The translations under genes and the position numbers were made by a program. From Patescibacteria group bacterium (lineage in GTDB: Bacteria > Patescibacteriota > Microgenomatia > UBA1406 > GWC2-37-13), in NCBI GenBank assembly GCA_023380935.1, contig JAMCST010000011.1, positions 62,001 to 126,000 of the forward strand: DNA of 64,000 bases, given 5' to 3'. Under the pieces are notes generated by a model, which saw nothing but the letters and a program-made list of their open reading frames with translations, made no database searches and had not been told where the DNA came from. Below, in pieces: positions 13,107 to 23,143 of this stretch; positions within the stretch are counted from its first letter, which is position 1, and every line of letters starts with the position of its first letter.

Positions 13107-14249
13107 CTACGAAAACATACTATTAATTAATTGGTCGGGTTTATTAACTATATTTTTTATTCCACCAGTAAATGGTATAACTTTGTCTTTACCAAAGATA
13201 TCGTAATATCTATTCAGACTTTTTTCACCTAATGTACATACGATTACCTTTTTAAATGGTTTGTATCTATCTGCCTCTCTAAATAGCATTTTAGCATGAT
13301 GGTCTGTATCAGGAAATGAAAATCCAGCAAAAATTAACACATCTATTTTTAATATTTGTTGCCAAGCATTGTTCCAAATTTTTTTAAACAAAATTGATTT
13401 TTTATCATTTTGAAGATCAAGAGTTATATTTTGTTTAAAAAGATCAGGTGGAATAATAGTAGGTTCTTGAATATAGTCAGGTTTTTCATTAATAAATTGA
13501 CCTTGATTATATTTTTGCTCTACTATTTTTGAATCAATATTGCTAGGAATTTCAAAATTCCAACCAGATTGATTATTAAAAGTAGCCTTCCAATTTATTG
13601 AACCATGCATTTTAAATAGGGGAATTCCGTTTATATATCCTACGCTATGATTAGAATTAAAATAATATAATCTTTCTGTAAATTTTCCTTTGAACCATGC
13701 CTGTTCAACTGAATTATCATAGTTAAAAGTCGAGATTCCTTGTAAATCACTCGAGTTAAGTAATAAATTTAAAAAACTTGATAATATTTCTTTTTGTAGC
13801 TGAAGATTCCCATAGATTTGAAGAATAAGCTGTACAGCTTCCCATTGAGCTAATGGCCCAACACAACCTTCTTTTCCAACCCACGTAAGTTGGCAATTAA
13901 TATTGTTTCGAAAATTATCATCTATTTCAGATTTTTTTTGAAATAATTTTTCTAGTTTTTGATATTCGTGTTCTAAGGAGATAATTCTCTGAGCACTAAT
14001 TTGATTATTTGTTAATTTAGAAGCTAGATCAATATCTGACCATGTTGTCTCTAAAGAACTAAATTGCTTAATGTTTTGAAAAAAGTGTAATGCTGGAAAT
14101 TTTGCTTGATTATATAGTTTTTTAACTATTGCTGTATTGAAAAAATTCTGATCCATTGGAGAATCAAAATATAAATCACGATAGTCTATTGAAAATCCAT
14201 CAACGCTAGCTCCAGTTCCTAATACAAGAAAAGTTTTTTCTTTTTTCAT
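13107..14249 (-). CDS. SIR2-like (NAD-hydrolase fold) putative defence protein
   Basis: This 380-residue protein has Rossmann-type SIR2 motifs: FLVLGTGAS at residues 7-15 (NAD phosphate loop), STFNYDNSVEQAW (the conserved N-x-D region), FKMHGSINW (catalytic-type His) and DVLIFAGFSFPDTDHHAKML near the end. Proteins of this SIR2_2 type are commonly found in anti-phage systems, where they deplete NAD+. No classical deacetylase zinc ribbon is seen. No Argonaute, HerA or other known partner lies beside it, so it would act alone or with a distant partner. The gene is much more AT-rich than its neighbours and is bracketed by direct repeats, which points to horizontal acquisition. Confidence 0.8.
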   Translation of the reverse strand: MKKEKTFLVLGTGASVDGFSIDYRDLYFDSPMDQNFFNTAIVKKLYNQAKFPALHFFQNIKQFSSLETTWSDIDLASKLTNNQISAQRIISLEHEYQKLEKLFQKKSEIDDNFRNNINCQLTWVGKEGCVGPLAQWEAVQLILQIYGNLQLQKEILSSFLNLLLNSSDLQGISTFNYDNSVEQAWFKGKFTERLYYFNSNHSVGYINGIPLFKMHGSINWKATFNNQSGWNFEIPSNIDSKIVEQKYNQGQFINEKPDYIQEPTIIPPDLFKQNITLDLQNDKKSILFKKIWNNAWQQILKIDVLIFAGFSFPDTDHHAKMLFREADRYKPFKKVIVCTLGEKSLNRYYDIFGKDKVIPFTGGIKNIVNKPDQLINSMFS

Positions 14250-15054: not shown

Positions 15055-15141
15055 CGGAGAGGGCGGGATTCGAACCCGCGATGACGTTGCCGCCATACCA
15101 GTTTTCGAGACTGGCCGATTCAACCACTCTCGCACCTCTCC
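15055..15141 (-). tRNA. tRNA-Ser(CGA)
   Basis: A complete class II tRNA lies on the minus strand. The acceptor stem GGAGAGG pairs with CCTCTCC, the anticodon arm is CCAGT-CTCGAAA-ACTGG (anticodon CGA, reading UCG), there is a long variable arm, and the T arm is GCGGG-TTCGAAT-CCCGC. The discriminator base is G, as in serine tRNAs, and CCA is not encoded. Its 5' half and four upstream bases are repeated exactly at 15448-15547 apart from an insert there. GIY-YIG genes lie on both sides. Confidence 0.95.
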
Positions 15142-15557: not shown

Positions 15558-16598
15558 CTACAAAGCGATGACGGATTTTGGCAGATTGGCAAACTGAGAC
15601 ATGGTTTCCCCGGTCGTGGTCAGTACCGCCTGGTACTTTTTGACCAACTCGACCACCATGGCGCTGTTTTTCCGGTCCAGTTCGGAGAAGATGTCATCCA
15701 GCAGCAAGATGGGCATGTGGTGATAATTCTCTTCGTAATAATTAATCTCGTTGATCTTTAACCAAAACACCGCCAGGCGCTGTTCGCTGCGCGCGCCGAA
15801 GTGTTGGAGGTTTTTGTCCCGGGTATTTTTCAATAAGAAATAAAAATCGTCCTTTTGCGGCCCGATCAGGGTGCGCCGGTAGCGCCGCTCCGACTCAAAC
15901 ACTTCCTCGAGTTTGGCCAGCGTCATCTCGTTTTTGTGGTAGTAAATGCCGAACTCCTTGTGGTCAAGCCGGGAATGGCGGTTGAGAAAATCAACGTAAG
16001 CTTGGCGCTTTTGGGTAATGTCGGTGGCCTGTTCGACCAGATAGCGGTTCCAGAACGCCAGCTCGTCTTTGAGGCGCTGCTCGTCGCGCTGGGTCTCAAG
16101 GATTTTGTTGCGCTTGTGCAGCGCGTTTTCGTAGTTCACCAGGCGTTTTTTGTACGCCAGGTCATAAAGGCCGATCTGTTTGTTGAAATAGTCGCGCCGT
16201 TTGTCCGGCGGACCGGTAATGATCTCGATCTGCTCCGGAGCGAACAAAATCGCCTTGGTCTGCTCGCGCAGATACTGCTGGGGCTTTTTTTTGCTGTTGT
16301 TGATCAGATACTGTTTTTCTACTCCGGCCGCCTTTTTGGTCAGGCGCAGACGGAAAGACAAGTCGGCCTCTCCGCCCAACCGGCCGACGACGTCGGCCGT
16401 CTGATGGCCGATCGTGATCAGCTCCTCCTCGCGGCTTTCCCGGAAACCCACCCCGTTGACGAAAAAGTATATCCCTTCGAGCAGGTTGGTCTTGCCGCGG
16501 GCATTTTCGCCCTTCACCACGGTCAGGCCGGGGCTAAAATCAAACATCGACTGGTCGAAGTTGCGGAAATGGTTAAAACGCAGGCGGCGCAAAGTCAT
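15558..16598 (-). CDS. recF: DNA replication and repair protein RecF
   Basis: RecF is an SMC-like ATPase that loads RecA at gaps with RecO/RecR. The 346-residue protein has Walker A GENARGKT at residues 30-37, the ABC signature region (HFGARSEQRLAVFWLKI) and Walker B MPILLLDDIFSELD followed by the TTTGETM switch. Length fits the family. In many bacteria recF lies with dnaA/dnaN/gyrB, but none of these is adjacent here. The stop codon is 10 nt from the partial tRNA-Ser. Confidence 0.95.
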   Translation of the reverse strand: MTLRRLRFNHFRNFDQSMFDFSPGLTVVKGENARGKTNLLEGIYFFVNGVGFRESREEELITIGHQTADVVGRLGGEADLSFRLRLTKKAAGVEKQYLINNSKKKPQQYLREQTKAILFAPEQIEIITGPPDKRRDYFNKQIGLYDLAYKKRLVNYENALHKRNKILETQRDEQRLKDELAFWNRYLVEQATDITQKRQAYVDFLNRHSRLDHKEFGIYYHKNEMTLAKLEEVFESERRYRRTLIGPQKDDFYFLLKNTRDKNLQHFGARSEQRLAVFWLKINEINYYEENYHHMPILLLDDIFSELDRKNSAMVVELVKKYQAVLTTTGETMSQFANLPKSVIAL

Positions 16599-16623: not shown

Positions 16624-17940
16624 TTATTTCTTCCGCAACACAAACACCGACTCGAAAAAGCTCGGGAGCTTGAAAAATCCCTTGCGCTGCAACACCACGC
16701 CCGGATGCTCCATGAATAGTTTTTTCCAGTATGTCTGGGACAGTACCGAAAGATGGGAAAAATCCCGGCCGTGCAGCAGATTGATCCAGCTGTTCTCGGT
16801 GGTATAGATTTTATGGTAGATGAAACGTCTGGTCACCCGGAAGGTTTCGTTGAGCGCTTGACGGATCTTTGAGCGCTCCAAATGCTCCATCACGTCAAAG
16901 GTCAAAACCAAGTCAAACTGGTTGTCGTGGTACGGCAACCGGCTGATGTTCCCCTGCTTGAGATAGGGTTGGATGGTTTTGTTGGCTAGACTGATGGCAA
17001 TGGCCGACAGTTCCACGCCGTAGGCCTCGATCCCCAAGCGACGCAGCGCCTTGACCAGACCGCCGGTGCCGCAACCCACGTCCAGACAGGTTTTGGGATT
17101 GAGAAACAGCTTGATAAGAAGCGCCCGATACAGATTCGCCAGTCCGTGAAACCAACGGCCGAACCGCGACTCCACCGTAGCTATCTTATGCTCGCCTTTC
17201 TTACCGGTATAGTAGTCGCGGTCATAAAAACTCGCGTCGATTCGGTAAGGCATGATGATTGTGCCGCGGAACTCCTCGCCGTTAAGAATTTTCTCGGTGT
17301 TCGCAAAATCAGAACCGTTGGTCACCACTACGGTTAGTCCGAGTTTTTTCGACCGTTGGGTAGCGATCGGGTCAAACGGAACATTGAGTCCGGGTGTCCA
17401 CTTTTTCCCCACCAGGTGTTCGAACTCCTCCCAGGTGATTTTTTTGATGATTTTGGCGTCGCGGTACTTTTTCGGGTCACGGTCATAGACCCAGTTGATG
17501 TTGGAAAGGTTGATGATCAAGTTGGCTTTATAGTGCTGGGCGGCCATTACGGCGCAGTAATCGGTTGACCAGCCCGGTTTCCAGCCGGCGCCGATGATGA
17601 TCGGTTCTTTCCAGGCATCAAACTTCCTGTTGTAGTACTGGATAATGCGCGGATGGGCGATGTCCTGGAAAATGGTGCGCAGCAGATGGGCGTTGACCCG
17701 GGTGAGATGGATCGCCAACCAATCCAGGTCGTCGTTGGTCACCCGGCCGATGATGTTTTTGCCGGCGTCACGATAAATGCGGGCAATGCTGCCGCCGCCG
17801 GCCACCAAGATGAAGCGCTTGCCCTGCGCCACATGCTTGCGGATAAACGTATTGAGCTGGCTCAGGAACTGGGTATCGACATCGCCGTTGGGCACAATCA
17901 GGCTGCCGCCAACCGAGATGACGATGGGTGCTTCTTTCAT
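16624..17940 (-). CDS. Fusion: archaeal-type UMP kinase + SAM-dependent methyltransferase
   Basis: One uninterrupted 438-residue frame holds two enzymes. Residues 1 to about 230 are an amino-acid-kinase fold protein of the archaeal PyrH type: VISVGGSL, ILVAGGGSIARIY, LDWLAIHLTRVNAHLL and GWKPGWSTDYCAV, the last being the UMP-site region. After a linker with FYDRDYYTGKKGEHK comes a class I methyltransferase with motif I LDVGCGTG at 286-293, VELS (motif II) and FDLVLTFDVMEHL (motif IV). UMP kinase makes UDP for RNA and sugar nucleotides; the methyl acceptor is unknown. I start at ATG 17940 rather than a TTG at 17952 that lies in a terminator T-run. The leader looks attenuator-like. Confidence 0.85.
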   Translation of the reverse strand: MKEAPIVISVGGSLIVPNGDVDTQFLSQLNTFIRKHVAQGKRFILVAGGGSIARIYRDAGKNIIGRVTNDDLDWLAIHLTRVNAHLLRTIFQDIAHPRIIQYYNRKFDAWKEPIIIGAGWKPGWSTDYCAVMAAQHYKANLIINLSNINWVYDRDPKKYRDAKIIKKITWEEFEHLVGKKWTPGLNVPFDPIATQRSKKLGLTVVVTNGSDFANTEKILNGEEFRGTIIMPYRIDASFYDRDYYTGKKGEHKIATVESRFGRWFHGLANLYRALLIKLFLNPKTCLDVGCGTGGLVKALRRLGIEAYGVELSAIAISLANKTIQPYLKQGNISRLPYHDNQFDLVLTFDVMEHLERSKIRQALNETFRVTRRFIYHKIYTTENSWINLLHGRDFSHLSVLSQTYWKKLFMEHPGVVLQRKGFFKLPSFFESVFVLRKK

Positions 17941-17950
17941 TTTTATGGAC

Positions 17951-17977
17951 AAAAAAAATCCCGACCGCTGCCGGGAT
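17951..17977 (-). terminator. Rho-independent terminator / possible attenuator
   Basis: Minus strand: ATCCCG-8-CGGGAT immediately followed by eight T's. It ends the operon that finishes at 18060, and because a promoter lies at 18058-18030 it is also in the leader of the kinase-methyltransferase gene, 11 nt before its ATG. Confidence 0.8.
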
Positions 17978-17988
17978 GATTTGCTAGC

Positions 17989-18015
17989 TTAGCCGTTAAT
18001 GAGCAACTGATACAT
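17989..18015 (-). CDS. Possible leader peptide MYQLLING
   Basis: A short minus-strand frame, ATG to TAA, encodes eight residues between the promoter at 18058-18030 and the terminator hairpin. The order promoter, short ORF, hairpin with T-run, gene resembles a transcription attenuator. The ORF is so short that chance cannot be excluded, and it has no SD. Confidence 0.3.
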   Translation of the reverse strand: MYQLLING

Positions 18016-18029
18016 ATTTGCGCGTCTTT

Positions 18030-18058
18030 ATTATAGCCGATCCTCCCCAGATTTACAA
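18030..18058 (-). promoter_or_regulatory. Promoter for the UMP kinase-methyltransferase gene
   Basis: Minus strand TTGTAA (18058-18053), 17-nt spacer, TATAAT (18035-18030). The start would be near 18023, giving a leader of roughly 80 nt that contains the short ORF and the terminator hairpin. Confidence 0.65.
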
Positions 18059-19426: not shown

Positions 19427-22400
19427 TTAGTTGACAATTTTTTTCGCCTGGGCCGCCGGTGCCTCTGAATCTGAACCGGATGAGCTGGGTGAGGACGGTG
19501 GATTAATCTGATCTTCCGGTGTTTTTTTGGGTTCGACCACCGTTACGGCACGGGACACGCATTTCGGGCAGATGATGGTGGCATTGGGATAAACCTTGGT
19601 ACTGAACACCGTCTGGCACTGACGGCATTGGTATTGTTTGGTCTCCACGGTTTGAGATGGGCTTTTGTCCACGATCACTAGCCGTTCGACGTTAAAGACA
19701 AAGCCGTCACCCTGGAAATCTACCGTTACCTGGTCGCCGGCCGCCATTTTTTTCTCAATGATCAGGCTGGAAATCGGGTTCTCGACCAGTTTCTGAATCG
19801 CCCGCCGCAACGGCCGGGCGCCGAACACCGGATCAAACCCGGCCCGGACAATTTCTTTGAGGGCGGCCTCGGAATAACTGAAGCCCATGTCCTGTTCTTC
19901 GAGCGCTTTTTGCACTGACTTCAGTTGCAGTTTGACGATCGCCTTCATCTGACTAAAGCGCAACGGCTCGAACAGGATTACTTCGTCAAACCGGTTGATC
20001 AATTCGGGCCGGAAGAACTTGTGCAGTTCGGCCATCACCTTGGTGCGCAACTGAACAAACTGTTTTTTCTGGACTTCGTCATCCACCCGCTGTTTTTCCT
20101 GGATCTGTTTTTCCAACGGGAAATCCTGGCCAAAGTACTGCTGGATCGGTTTCATTAACCACTGATTGGTCTTGGCCTCACGGTACCAGATGGTATCGGC
20201 CACCACGACGAACTCGATACCCGCCGGCGAAAAAGCGTGAATGTCCCAGTAGGCGGTGGGAAAGTTGCCGCCGGCCACGGCGCTGTCCTTAAAGTAGTCC
20301 TTTAACAAACCGGTCTGCCAGTTTTTCCCGTTCATCTCCCGCACCCAATACCGGTCCTTGTGGGTGACGATCTCCTTGTCGTCGGGACTAAAGGCGTGGG
20401 TTTTAAGCATGGCGGTGGGTAATTGTTCGTCAGGCGCGTCCGGAAGCGCATTGATTACCACGTTGTCTTTGAATAGATTAACCAACGTCGCGGTTTTCCA
20501 GGTTTTGCCGGTGGTGGAGTTGCGCATGTAAGCCGTTTTGCCCTTGGTGATCATCTCGACGCCGCTGGCGGAAATGGCGTGGGTGTCAAATCCGTGGATG
20601 GGAAAATCAATCTTTGTCCCAACCGCATCCGCCTCGATTTCCTGGCCGGAAAAGTAGTCAAGCAGCATCTTTTCGTTCCATTTGCCCGTCTGTCCGTCTT
20701 TTTCAAAAATCTTATTGCCGATCGTCAGCATCTCTCTTCCCCGCGGAGAAAAGGTATAGGTGGAAAGTACCGGCGGTTCCTCGATCTCGCTCTTTCCCGC
20801 TTTCATCAGCTCCTGTTGGATGATGGGTGATCCGATGTTCGAAGTACAGATCACCACGGTGTTCTTGAAGGAAATCGTATGCCCTTTATTGTCGGTTAAA
20901 CGACCGTCGTCAAGAATCTGCAGCAAAATATTGAAAATGTCAGGGTGGGCCTTTTCGATTTCGTCAAACAACACCACCGAGTAGGGCTTGCGCCGCACCG
21001 CCTCGGTCAGCTTTCCCCCTTCTTCATAGCCGACATAGCCCGGCGGCGCGCCCAGCAGTTTGGCCACCTCGTGTTTTTCCATGTATTCGGTCATGTCAAA
21101 CCTCACCATTGCCTCTTCCTGGCCAAACAAAATATCGGCTAAGGTTTTGGCCAGTTCGGTTTTTCCGGTACCGGTCGGTCCCAAAAATACGAAGCTGCCG
21201 ATCGGACGCTGGGTCGATTTGAGGCCGGCCCGTCCGCGACGGATCGCCTGGGACACCGCCGCCACCGCCTCGTCCTGGCCGATCAGGCGTCGGTGCATGA
21301 TTTCCTCGAGATGCGATAGCTTTTCCATTTCCGATCCGCTGATCTTGGCGATGGGAATGCCGGTCCAGCGGGAAACGATCTCCTTGATGATCTCGCCGCT
21401 CACGGCCGTGGTCGTCTGGGATTTTCTCAGGTTGTATTCCTCTTTTTTATCGTTCAGTTGGGTCTGGATGTCGGCGATCTTTGATCGTAAAATTCTCGCC
21501 CTGACCTGATCGGTGGACTTTTCGCTTTCCTTGAGCTCCTGATTTAATTCGGCTACCCGCGTTTCCAACGACCGGATCTCTTCAGGTAACGAAATCATCG
21601 GCAAGCGCACCGCCGAAGCCGCCTCGTCAATCAAATCCACCGCCTTGTCCGGCAAAAACCGGTCACCCACATAACGTTTGGAAAGACGCACGGCGGCGTC
21701 GATCGCCTCGTCGGGAATCTGCACCCGGTGAAACGCCTCGTATTTACCCTTAATCGCCTTGAGCATCTTGATGGCTTGTTCTTCGTTGGGCTCGGGAACG
21801 ATCACCGGCTGAAAGCGCCGCTCCAGGGCCGGATCTTTTTCGATGTATTTTCGGTATTCGGTCAGGGTGGTGGCGCCGATCACCTGCATCTCGCCGCGGG
21901 ACAGGGCCGGCTTGAGAAAGTTGGCCGCGTCGCTGGTGCCTTCGTTGCCTCCCGCTCCCATGATGTTGTGGATCTCGTCGATGAACAGTATGATTTGGCC
22001 TTTGCTCGCTTTTACCTCTTCAATCAGGTCTTTCATCCGCTCTTCAAAATCGCCGCGGTGCGAGGCGCCGGCCAACAGGCTCATCAGATCCAGCGACAAA
22101 ATCCGTCGGTTGAGCAACGGCTCCGGCACCTGTTTGGCAACAATCTTCTCCGCCAACCCTTCAACAATGGCGGTTTTTCCCACCCCGGCCTCGCCGACCA
22201 AAGCGGGATTGTTCTTGGTGCGTCTTGACAAAATATGGATGACGCGCTCGATCGTGTCGTAACGCTCCACCACCGGATCAAGCAACCCCTGGGCGGCTTT
22301 GGCCGTCATGTCAATCGTATATTGCTCCAATGCGCTCTTCTTGGCCTGACGTCCTTGAGTGGCGTCCTGCTCTTCCAATCCTTCCTTTTTCCCCAGAATT

Positions 22401-23143
22401 TTCTTGTTCAGTTCCTCTTTTTTCAAACCCAGTTTGGCCAAAATCCGGGCGCCGGCTCCTTCACCTTCTTCGTAAAGCGCCAGCAAAATGTGCTCCGGGG
22501 AAATAAACTCAAAACCCAACTTACGCGCCACTACCAGTGAGTTATCGATGATCCGTTTGACGCGCGGCGCCATCTGGGGCAACTGAAGACGACTGCCTTT
22601 TTTATAGACTTTGGCCAGTTCCTCCTCGACCAGTTGCGGCTGCAGTTTAAGATCAACCAGCAGTTTATAGATCTCCCCATCGGAGAGCAACCCGTGCAAC
22701 AGATGCTCGCTGTCGATCAACTCGCTCTGGAGCTCCTTTGCCTTGGTCTGGGCCGATAAAAACACCCGATTGGACCGCTGGGTCAAATGGGTCATCAGGT
22801 CAAGATCGCTGCGTTTTTTGTCATTGAGATTGGAGTTGAGACTGGCGCCGGTTGGTCTATCCGATGCGTTTGGCGGCCGGGTGGCCGGAGCAGACGCGGT
22901 AGGCGCTTTGGCCTCGGTGGGAACGGGGCGACCCGGCGGTGTACCAATTCCGCTGTAGGCCGATCCGCTGCTCGGATGACCAATGCCGCTATATGATTGA
23001 GAATGGTCGACCGGAACGGCAAAACCGCTGTCGGCTACGCCGCTGGCAGAAGGAGGAGCGGTCGCGGGCGGCGGAATCACCTGGGTTGTTTTTACTGTTG
23101 ATTGATTGCTGGATTTTTTAATAAAATCAAAGAAACCGGCCAT
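19427..23143 (-). CDS. ClpC/ClpB-like AAA+ unfoldase with four-repeat insertion in D2
   Basis: This 1238-residue HSP100 protein has, in order: an approximately 105-residue Pro/Ser/Gly-rich disordered N-terminus; a double Clp-N domain; AAA-1 with GEAGVGKT near residue 316, Walker [10 protein letters not shown] and the R-finger region LERRFQ; a short coiled-coil M-domain; AAA-2 with GPTGTGKT near 655 and [13 protein letters not shown]; sensor-1 TSNIG at 767-771. Between this and FFRPELINR (about 1043-1051) ClpC proteins have about 40 residues including the ClpP-docking VGF/IGL loop. Here there are about 270, with four tandem (Y/H)A-F-S-P-x-G-x-E repeats (about 795-1008) and no docking loop. After the small domain follow a C4 zinc ribbon (CRQC...CPKC) and a Ser/Pro-rich tail. 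It heads a surface-protein operon, suggesting a role in secretion rather than ClpP proteolysis. Confidence 0.9.
20100..20775 (-). repeat. Four tandem protein repeats inserted in the Clp-like D2 domain
   Basis: The repeats start near 20761, 20584, 20400 and 20240, i.e. 53-61 codons each. Their first lines are [36 protein letters not shown] and [12 protein letters not shown]; each then has an aromatic strand ([46 protein letters not shown]) and ends L-x-x-Y/L-F. The F-S-P-x-G-x-E-x-V rhythm recalls beta-propeller (WD40-like) blades. Confidence 0.85.

Follow-up and report, generated by a model that had tools for sequence, protein, structure and literature searches.

UMP kinases are hexamers and form the gateway to UDP, UTP and CTP; those of the archaeal type are, to our knowledge, single-domain proteins. 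For expression control of a pyrimidine gene the closest described system is pyrBI of E. coli, which works by translation coupling on a leader peptide (PMC5021804), and E. coli ribosomes can suppress a terminator when the stop codon lies within about 27 nt of it (PMC4824070). Here a gene is described in which an archaeal-type UMP kinase is continued, in the same frame, by a SAM-dependent methyltransferase, and which is preceded by a recurrent leader. It lies in a 64,000-nt stretch of contig JAMCST010000011.1 from a Patescibacteria group bacterium (the window), and is referred to as pyrH-MT. The reading that we favour, at a probability of roughly 55%, is that of a bifunctional UMP kinase-methyltransferase with an acceptor of the glycan or nucleotide-sugar type, the expression of which is set by a translation-coupled attenuator.

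Two enzymes in one reading frame

On the minus strand of the window, the frame 16624-17952 is open and has its natural ATG at 17940; pyrH-MT (16624..17940, minus strand, stop codon counted) thus encodes an uninterrupted protein of 438 aa. The archaeal-type UMP kinase domain (aa 6-229; 17254..17925, minus strand) was identified by profile search with TIGR02076 (pyrH_arch), which scored 171.2 bits against a cut-off of 158.05, and the class I SAM methyltransferase domain (approximately aa 235-438; 16627..17238, minus strand) by PF08241 (Methyltransf_11), which matched aa 286-371 with an E value of 1.2e-17. Motif I of the methyltransferase, LDVGCGTG, is intact at aa 286-293. The initial annotation had read the frame in the same way, as a UMP kinase of archaeal type joined to a class I methyltransferase with intact motif I, and the profile scores bear this out; it had also regarded the fusion as an arrangement not known for pyrH, and in the literature lists searched no paper on such a fusion was recognised.

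The AF2 model of pyrH-MT had a mean pLDDT of 85.5. In structure alignments of the model, the kinase half matched the S. solfataricus UMP kinase 2j4j with Z 28.7 (rmsd 2.1, 223 residues aligned) and the P. furiosus UMP kinase with Z 28.6. The methyltransferase half, folded alone, reached Z 18.4 to 1ve3 and Z of about 18 to class I methyltransferases generally; these fold matches were ties among enzymes with many substrates, so that no substrate was singled out. The kinase ends at about aa 231, and the stretch FYDRDYY at aa 238-244 already matches the N-terminal part of two free-standing methyltransferases (L157 and L158). The chain is composed of two whole enzymes, nearly without a linker. No NCBIfam methyltransferase model scored above its cut-off for the methyltransferase half; TIGR03587 (pseudaminic acid biosynthesis-associated methylase) gave 41.7 bits, short of its cut-off of 112.05. 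As an architecture the protein is new; the two enzyme families combined in it are known ones.

Distribution, gene neighbourhood and history of the fusion

The nearest relatives of the window's pyrH-MT are found in Candidatus Roizmanbacteria (Microgenomatia). Contigs were searched with an alignment query, which returned 80 loci; a single-protein query returned none. The initial annotation had proposed a search for the same fusion in other genomes: it was present as one ORF, with no stop at the boundary, in 43 genomes (window included), at 50-67% identity except for one shortened copy at 47%. Because the same uninterrupted fused ORF occurs in so many genomes, an assembly, frameshift or sequencing error at the domain boundary was ruled out. 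The fusion is common in the family to which the window belongs and in the sister families of that family; other parts of the class show it only sporadically (G079, G088, G249, and also G091, whose copy is interrupted by a frameshift). In the remainder of the class and phylum the kinase is unfused or has no close match, and among 379 sampled genomes of the phylum no full-length fusion was found outside the class. One long frame (G434) was examined as a candidate fusion and rejected, since it proved to be the kinase frame extended on its upstream side. In the window's own genome (85% complete) pyrH-MT was the only UMP kinase match, and a second UMP kinase was sought there and not found; the same genome yielded no close free-standing paralogue of the methyltransferase, the sole match being partial and 34% identical.

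The gene next to pyrH-MT, 25 nt downstream, is recF (15558..16598, minus strand; TIGR00611, 234 bits against a cut-off of 172). A recF relative was present in 110 loci, mostly immediately 3' of pyrH irrespective of whether pyrH was fused, and the unfused kinases of other relatives sit at the same pyrH-recF locus. The neighbours of pyrH-MT in the window are recF, a pilin-like gene and clpB, with no sugar genes among them. In G091 pyrF and pyrE are followed, in this order, by one small gene, a divergent kinase paralogue, pyrH-MT and recF, and the presence of pyrF and pyrE at this locus supports a pyrimidine role.

Several further features of these neighbourhoods were recorded. The paralogue of G091 (L172, 7679-8666), which lies directly upstream of the frameshift-split pyrH-MT and behind pyrE and pyrF, is a divergent UMP kinase of 244 aa that scores 145 bits (below the cut-off) and has SLRGS in place of SxGGS. 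In G249 (Gottesmanbacteria; L171, 3432-4685) a gene for a 417-aa ATPase-like protein stands between pyrH-MT and recF. The ClpB-like protein of the window (19427-23143, minus strand; 1238 aa) scores below the ClpB cut-off and carries approximately 250 extra residues, with about four repeats by eye, between AAA_2 (646-780) and ClpB_D2-small (1063-1141); ClpB-like relatives adjoining pyrH in Roizmanbacteria are often 1250-1600 aa long. A 380-aa protein encoded at 13107-14249 (minus strand) came marginally short of the SIR2_2 threshold (24.4 against 24.5 bits) and is possibly the product of a defence gene. A tRNA gene (15055-15141, minus strand) is situated between recF and two small ORFs that were named GIY-YIG-like by sequence reading.

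In the kinase tree, unfused Roizmanbacterial kinases are nested within fused ones, the Gottesmanbacteria fusion stands next to an unfused relative, and the fused/unfused label requires 6 changes (approximately 32 when shuffled). In the methyltransferase tree every fused domain falls on one side of a single branch (weak support, 68), which allows a single origin. An old fusion followed by repeated loss of the methyltransferase is the simplest reading of these trees; losses, a second origin and domain exchange may each have played a part. Motif I is kept in all but one of 47 fused copies. In the exception (G066; L115 and L045 are the same copy) it has gone by an in-frame gap, and the sister copy L110 still has it. 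With unfused kinases nested among the fused and one fused copy devoid of motif I, the methyltransferase domain is dispensable.

Both halves are under purifying selection, with dN/dS ratios in close pairs of 0.02-0.10 (kinase) and 0.04-0.17 (methyltransferase), values that are rough because dS is near saturation in most pairs. The halves also co-evolve: their pairwise distances were correlated with a Mantel r of 0.73, which was reached in 0 of 999 permutations. These results bear on the alternative that the fusion is a neutral accident, in which the two enzymes are unrelated and have the frame and promoter in common, with no link in function. The apparently repeated loss of the methyltransferase half is what such an accident would lead one to expect, but the fusion has been kept across a bacterial order and in three further lineages with almost no linker, and both purifying selection and co-evolution of the halves speak against it, although selection on each enzyme alone could explain part of that signal. 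We consider a neutral accident doubtful, while granting it some weight.

Probable activities of the two halves and a possible methyl acceptor

In the kinase half, residues R54, D73, T126 and D155 are invariant, and S9 stands where bacterial enzymes have a lysine and P. furiosus has Asp. The four invariant residues align with those of the P. furiosus UMP kinase, at positions which in the T. thermophilus UMP kinase contact nucleotides (PMC12404492). Across 29 members, the methyltransferase half has invariant Y243, G289, G293, H376, T380, D393, S395 and W405. Given these invariant residues, UMP kinase and methyltransferase activities are both likely on the evidence of sequence. The N-terminal half would then be the UMP kinase of the cell, converting UMP and ATP to UDP and ADP, and the C-terminal half an active SAM-dependent methyltransferase carried on it. 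Because UMP kinases are hexameric, the assembled kinase would be predicted to display six methyltransferase domains, and the fusion would tie the amount of methyltransferase to that of kinase.

The residues of the methyltransferase half also help to judge a different role for it, that of a SAM sensor which tunes the UMP kinase and so makes pyrimidine supply responsive to one-carbon status, while methylating little or not at all. A permanent fusion to a central metabolic enzyme would suit a sensor, as would the faster evolution of the methyltransferase half relative to the kinase, and there is precedent in the regulatory ligand-binding domains that are established as fusions to enzymes of the amino-acid-kinase fold, for example aspartate kinase. 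A bare sensor, however, would have no need of the acceptor-side residues H376, T380, D393, S395 and W405, which are invariant in the 29 members, and we regard a mainly sensory role as unlikely.

The gene neighbourhoods of free-standing methyltransferases give an indication of the acceptor. Among the nearest relatives examined, L157, L158, L159 and L161 adjoin or are fused to glycosyltransferases; of the others, L156 adjoins tsaD and L165 is fused to a TPP enzyme. Because several of the nearest free-standing relatives thus adjoin glycosyltransferase genes, a small acceptor of the glycan or nucleotide-sugar type appears most likely and is our best guess, a lean and not a proof. The initial annotation had suggested either a coupling of UDP supply to methylation of a uridine-derived product or the bringing together of two enzymes for making surface sugars, a proposal for which the glycosyltransferase neighbours are weak support. 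The same neighbourhoods count against methylation of the kinase's own UMP, UDP or a derivative to give a modified uridine nucleotide, which was the first suggestion of that annotation. Such a reaction would profit from the fusion, which would put the two active sites on one particle, but modification of the pool would presumably be costly, given that all UTP and CTP depend on UMP kinase, and we know of no methylated uridine nucleotide of this kind in these bacteria; we judge it very improbable. The position of UMP kinase as a gateway and the stability of the fusion across one bacterial order together suggest a permanent tie, in that order, between some methylation and the supply of pyrimidines.

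The pyrH leader and its relation to known systems

Upstream of pyrH-MT, on the minus strand, the window contains a promoter-like element TTGTAA-17-TATAAT (18030..18058; -10 at 18035-18030), a leader ORF encoding MYQLLING (17989..18015) with its stop 11 nt before a hairpin, and the GC-rich, terminator-like hairpin itself (17977-17958; fold z -3.1), which together with its T-run (17951..17977) ends 10 nt upstream of the ATG. Of 48 fused loci, approximately 24 have a similar hairpin at the same place (26 hits were obtained, two of which lie far upstream), about half being without one. The -10 recurs at the same place in relatives, and the recurring order is a -10 (mostly TATAAT), an ATG usually 10-18 nt further on, a short ORF, the hairpin and T-run, and finally the start of pyrH. 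The leader ORF has 6-22 codons and an unconserved peptide, its stop usually precedes the hairpin by 5-19 nt, and the distance from the T-run to the pyrH start is only about 10-25 nt. By eye, several fused copies that have no hairpin show a TATAAT close before the start instead, and the T content of the leaders varies, that of the window not being notably U-rich. The same leader precedes a Roizmanbacterial pyrH that is unfused (L117), and it therefore belongs to pyrH and not to the fusion. Searched against Rfam, the leaders of the window and of seven loci matched no family, a result that is compatible with a known riboswitch or leader.

For statistical evaluation, the 31 leaders with both hairpin and -10 were scored against 500 dinucleotide shuffles of the stretch between these two elements. 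A leader ORF was present in 27 of the 31 (shuffles 11.1 +/- 2.2, maximum 19) and a stop near the hairpin in 23 (shuffles 3.8 +/- 1.7, maximum 10); since the pattern had been spotted ahead of the test and the loci share ancestry, these statistics describe and do not predict. In 440 kb of the window's own genome the leader layout was found at one of 47 hairpin-T sites, namely that of pyrH, and in 718 kb from relatives at 23 of 30 pyrH hairpins as against one of 23 others, after reassignment of one row (L093) that is pyrH itself. Within the DNA scanned, the leader layout is nearly specific to pyrH.

The hairpin might also be read as the mere terminator of the upstream pilin-like gene, with no regulatory role for pyrH-MT, and many loci do have a same-strand gene ending about 80-150 nt upstream. 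At L060 and L062, however, an opposite-strand gene intervenes and the end of the nearest gene on the same strand is almost 1 kb distant, so the hairpin is unlikely to be an upstream gene's terminator there. The consensus -10 upstream of the hairpin, the short distance from T-run to start and leader ORF statistics above those of every shuffle point in the same direction, and we judge a mere terminator function of this kind improbable.

By analogy with E. coli pyrBI, the simplest reading of the leader is a translation-coupled transcription attenuator, here on a UMP kinase gene. RNA polymerase would start at the TATAAT element, so that the leader peptide would begin very near the RNA 5' end. A ribosome following close behind the polymerase would cover the region of the leader stop and block formation of the terminator hairpin, which would allow pyrH-MT to be read; should the polymerase run ahead of the ribosome, the hairpin would form and transcription would end. 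As in pyrBI, scarcity of UTP would slow the polymerase and thereby make read-through more likely. UTP is proposed as the signal by this analogy, and general translation status is the alternative. The attenuator would set expression of pyrH-MT and probably also of recF behind it. No literature on attenuators in these bacteria was recognised, and the leader provides a well-defined example on which gene regulation can be tested in bacteria that have strongly reduced genomes and hardly any genetics. In the most elaborate form of the proposal, six active methyltransferases, borne on a hexameric UMP kinase, would act on a UDP-linked product that is made next to them, and the whole unit would be controlled by a UTP-sensing leader-peptide attenuator, all in bacteria of the Candidate Phyla Radiation; this form has in our estimate a low probability.

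Compared with the UMP kinases of TIGR02076 (P. furiosus 2BMU, S. solfataricus 2J4J), pyrH-MT is alike in fold, domain length and nucleotide-contacting residues; it differs in being bacterial and in the methyltransferase that follows in the same chain. With the Methyltransf_11/23 enzymes of glycosyltransferase loci, its methyltransferase shares motif I, an N-terminal YxxxY(F) stretch and a D-S/T-H-like motif, all of them present in free-standing relatives that adjoin glycosyltransferases, but it is fused behind a UMP kinase and stands at the pyrH-recF locus. The leader has in common with that of E. coli pyrBI (pyrL) a promoter, a leader peptide (translated in pyrBI, putatively so here), an intrinsic terminator within reach of the ribosome and a pyrimidine gene next in line (PMC5021804, PMC4824070), whereas the leader described here would control pyrH, has an ORF of 6-22 codons that starts almost at the predicted 5' end, and belongs to another phylum.
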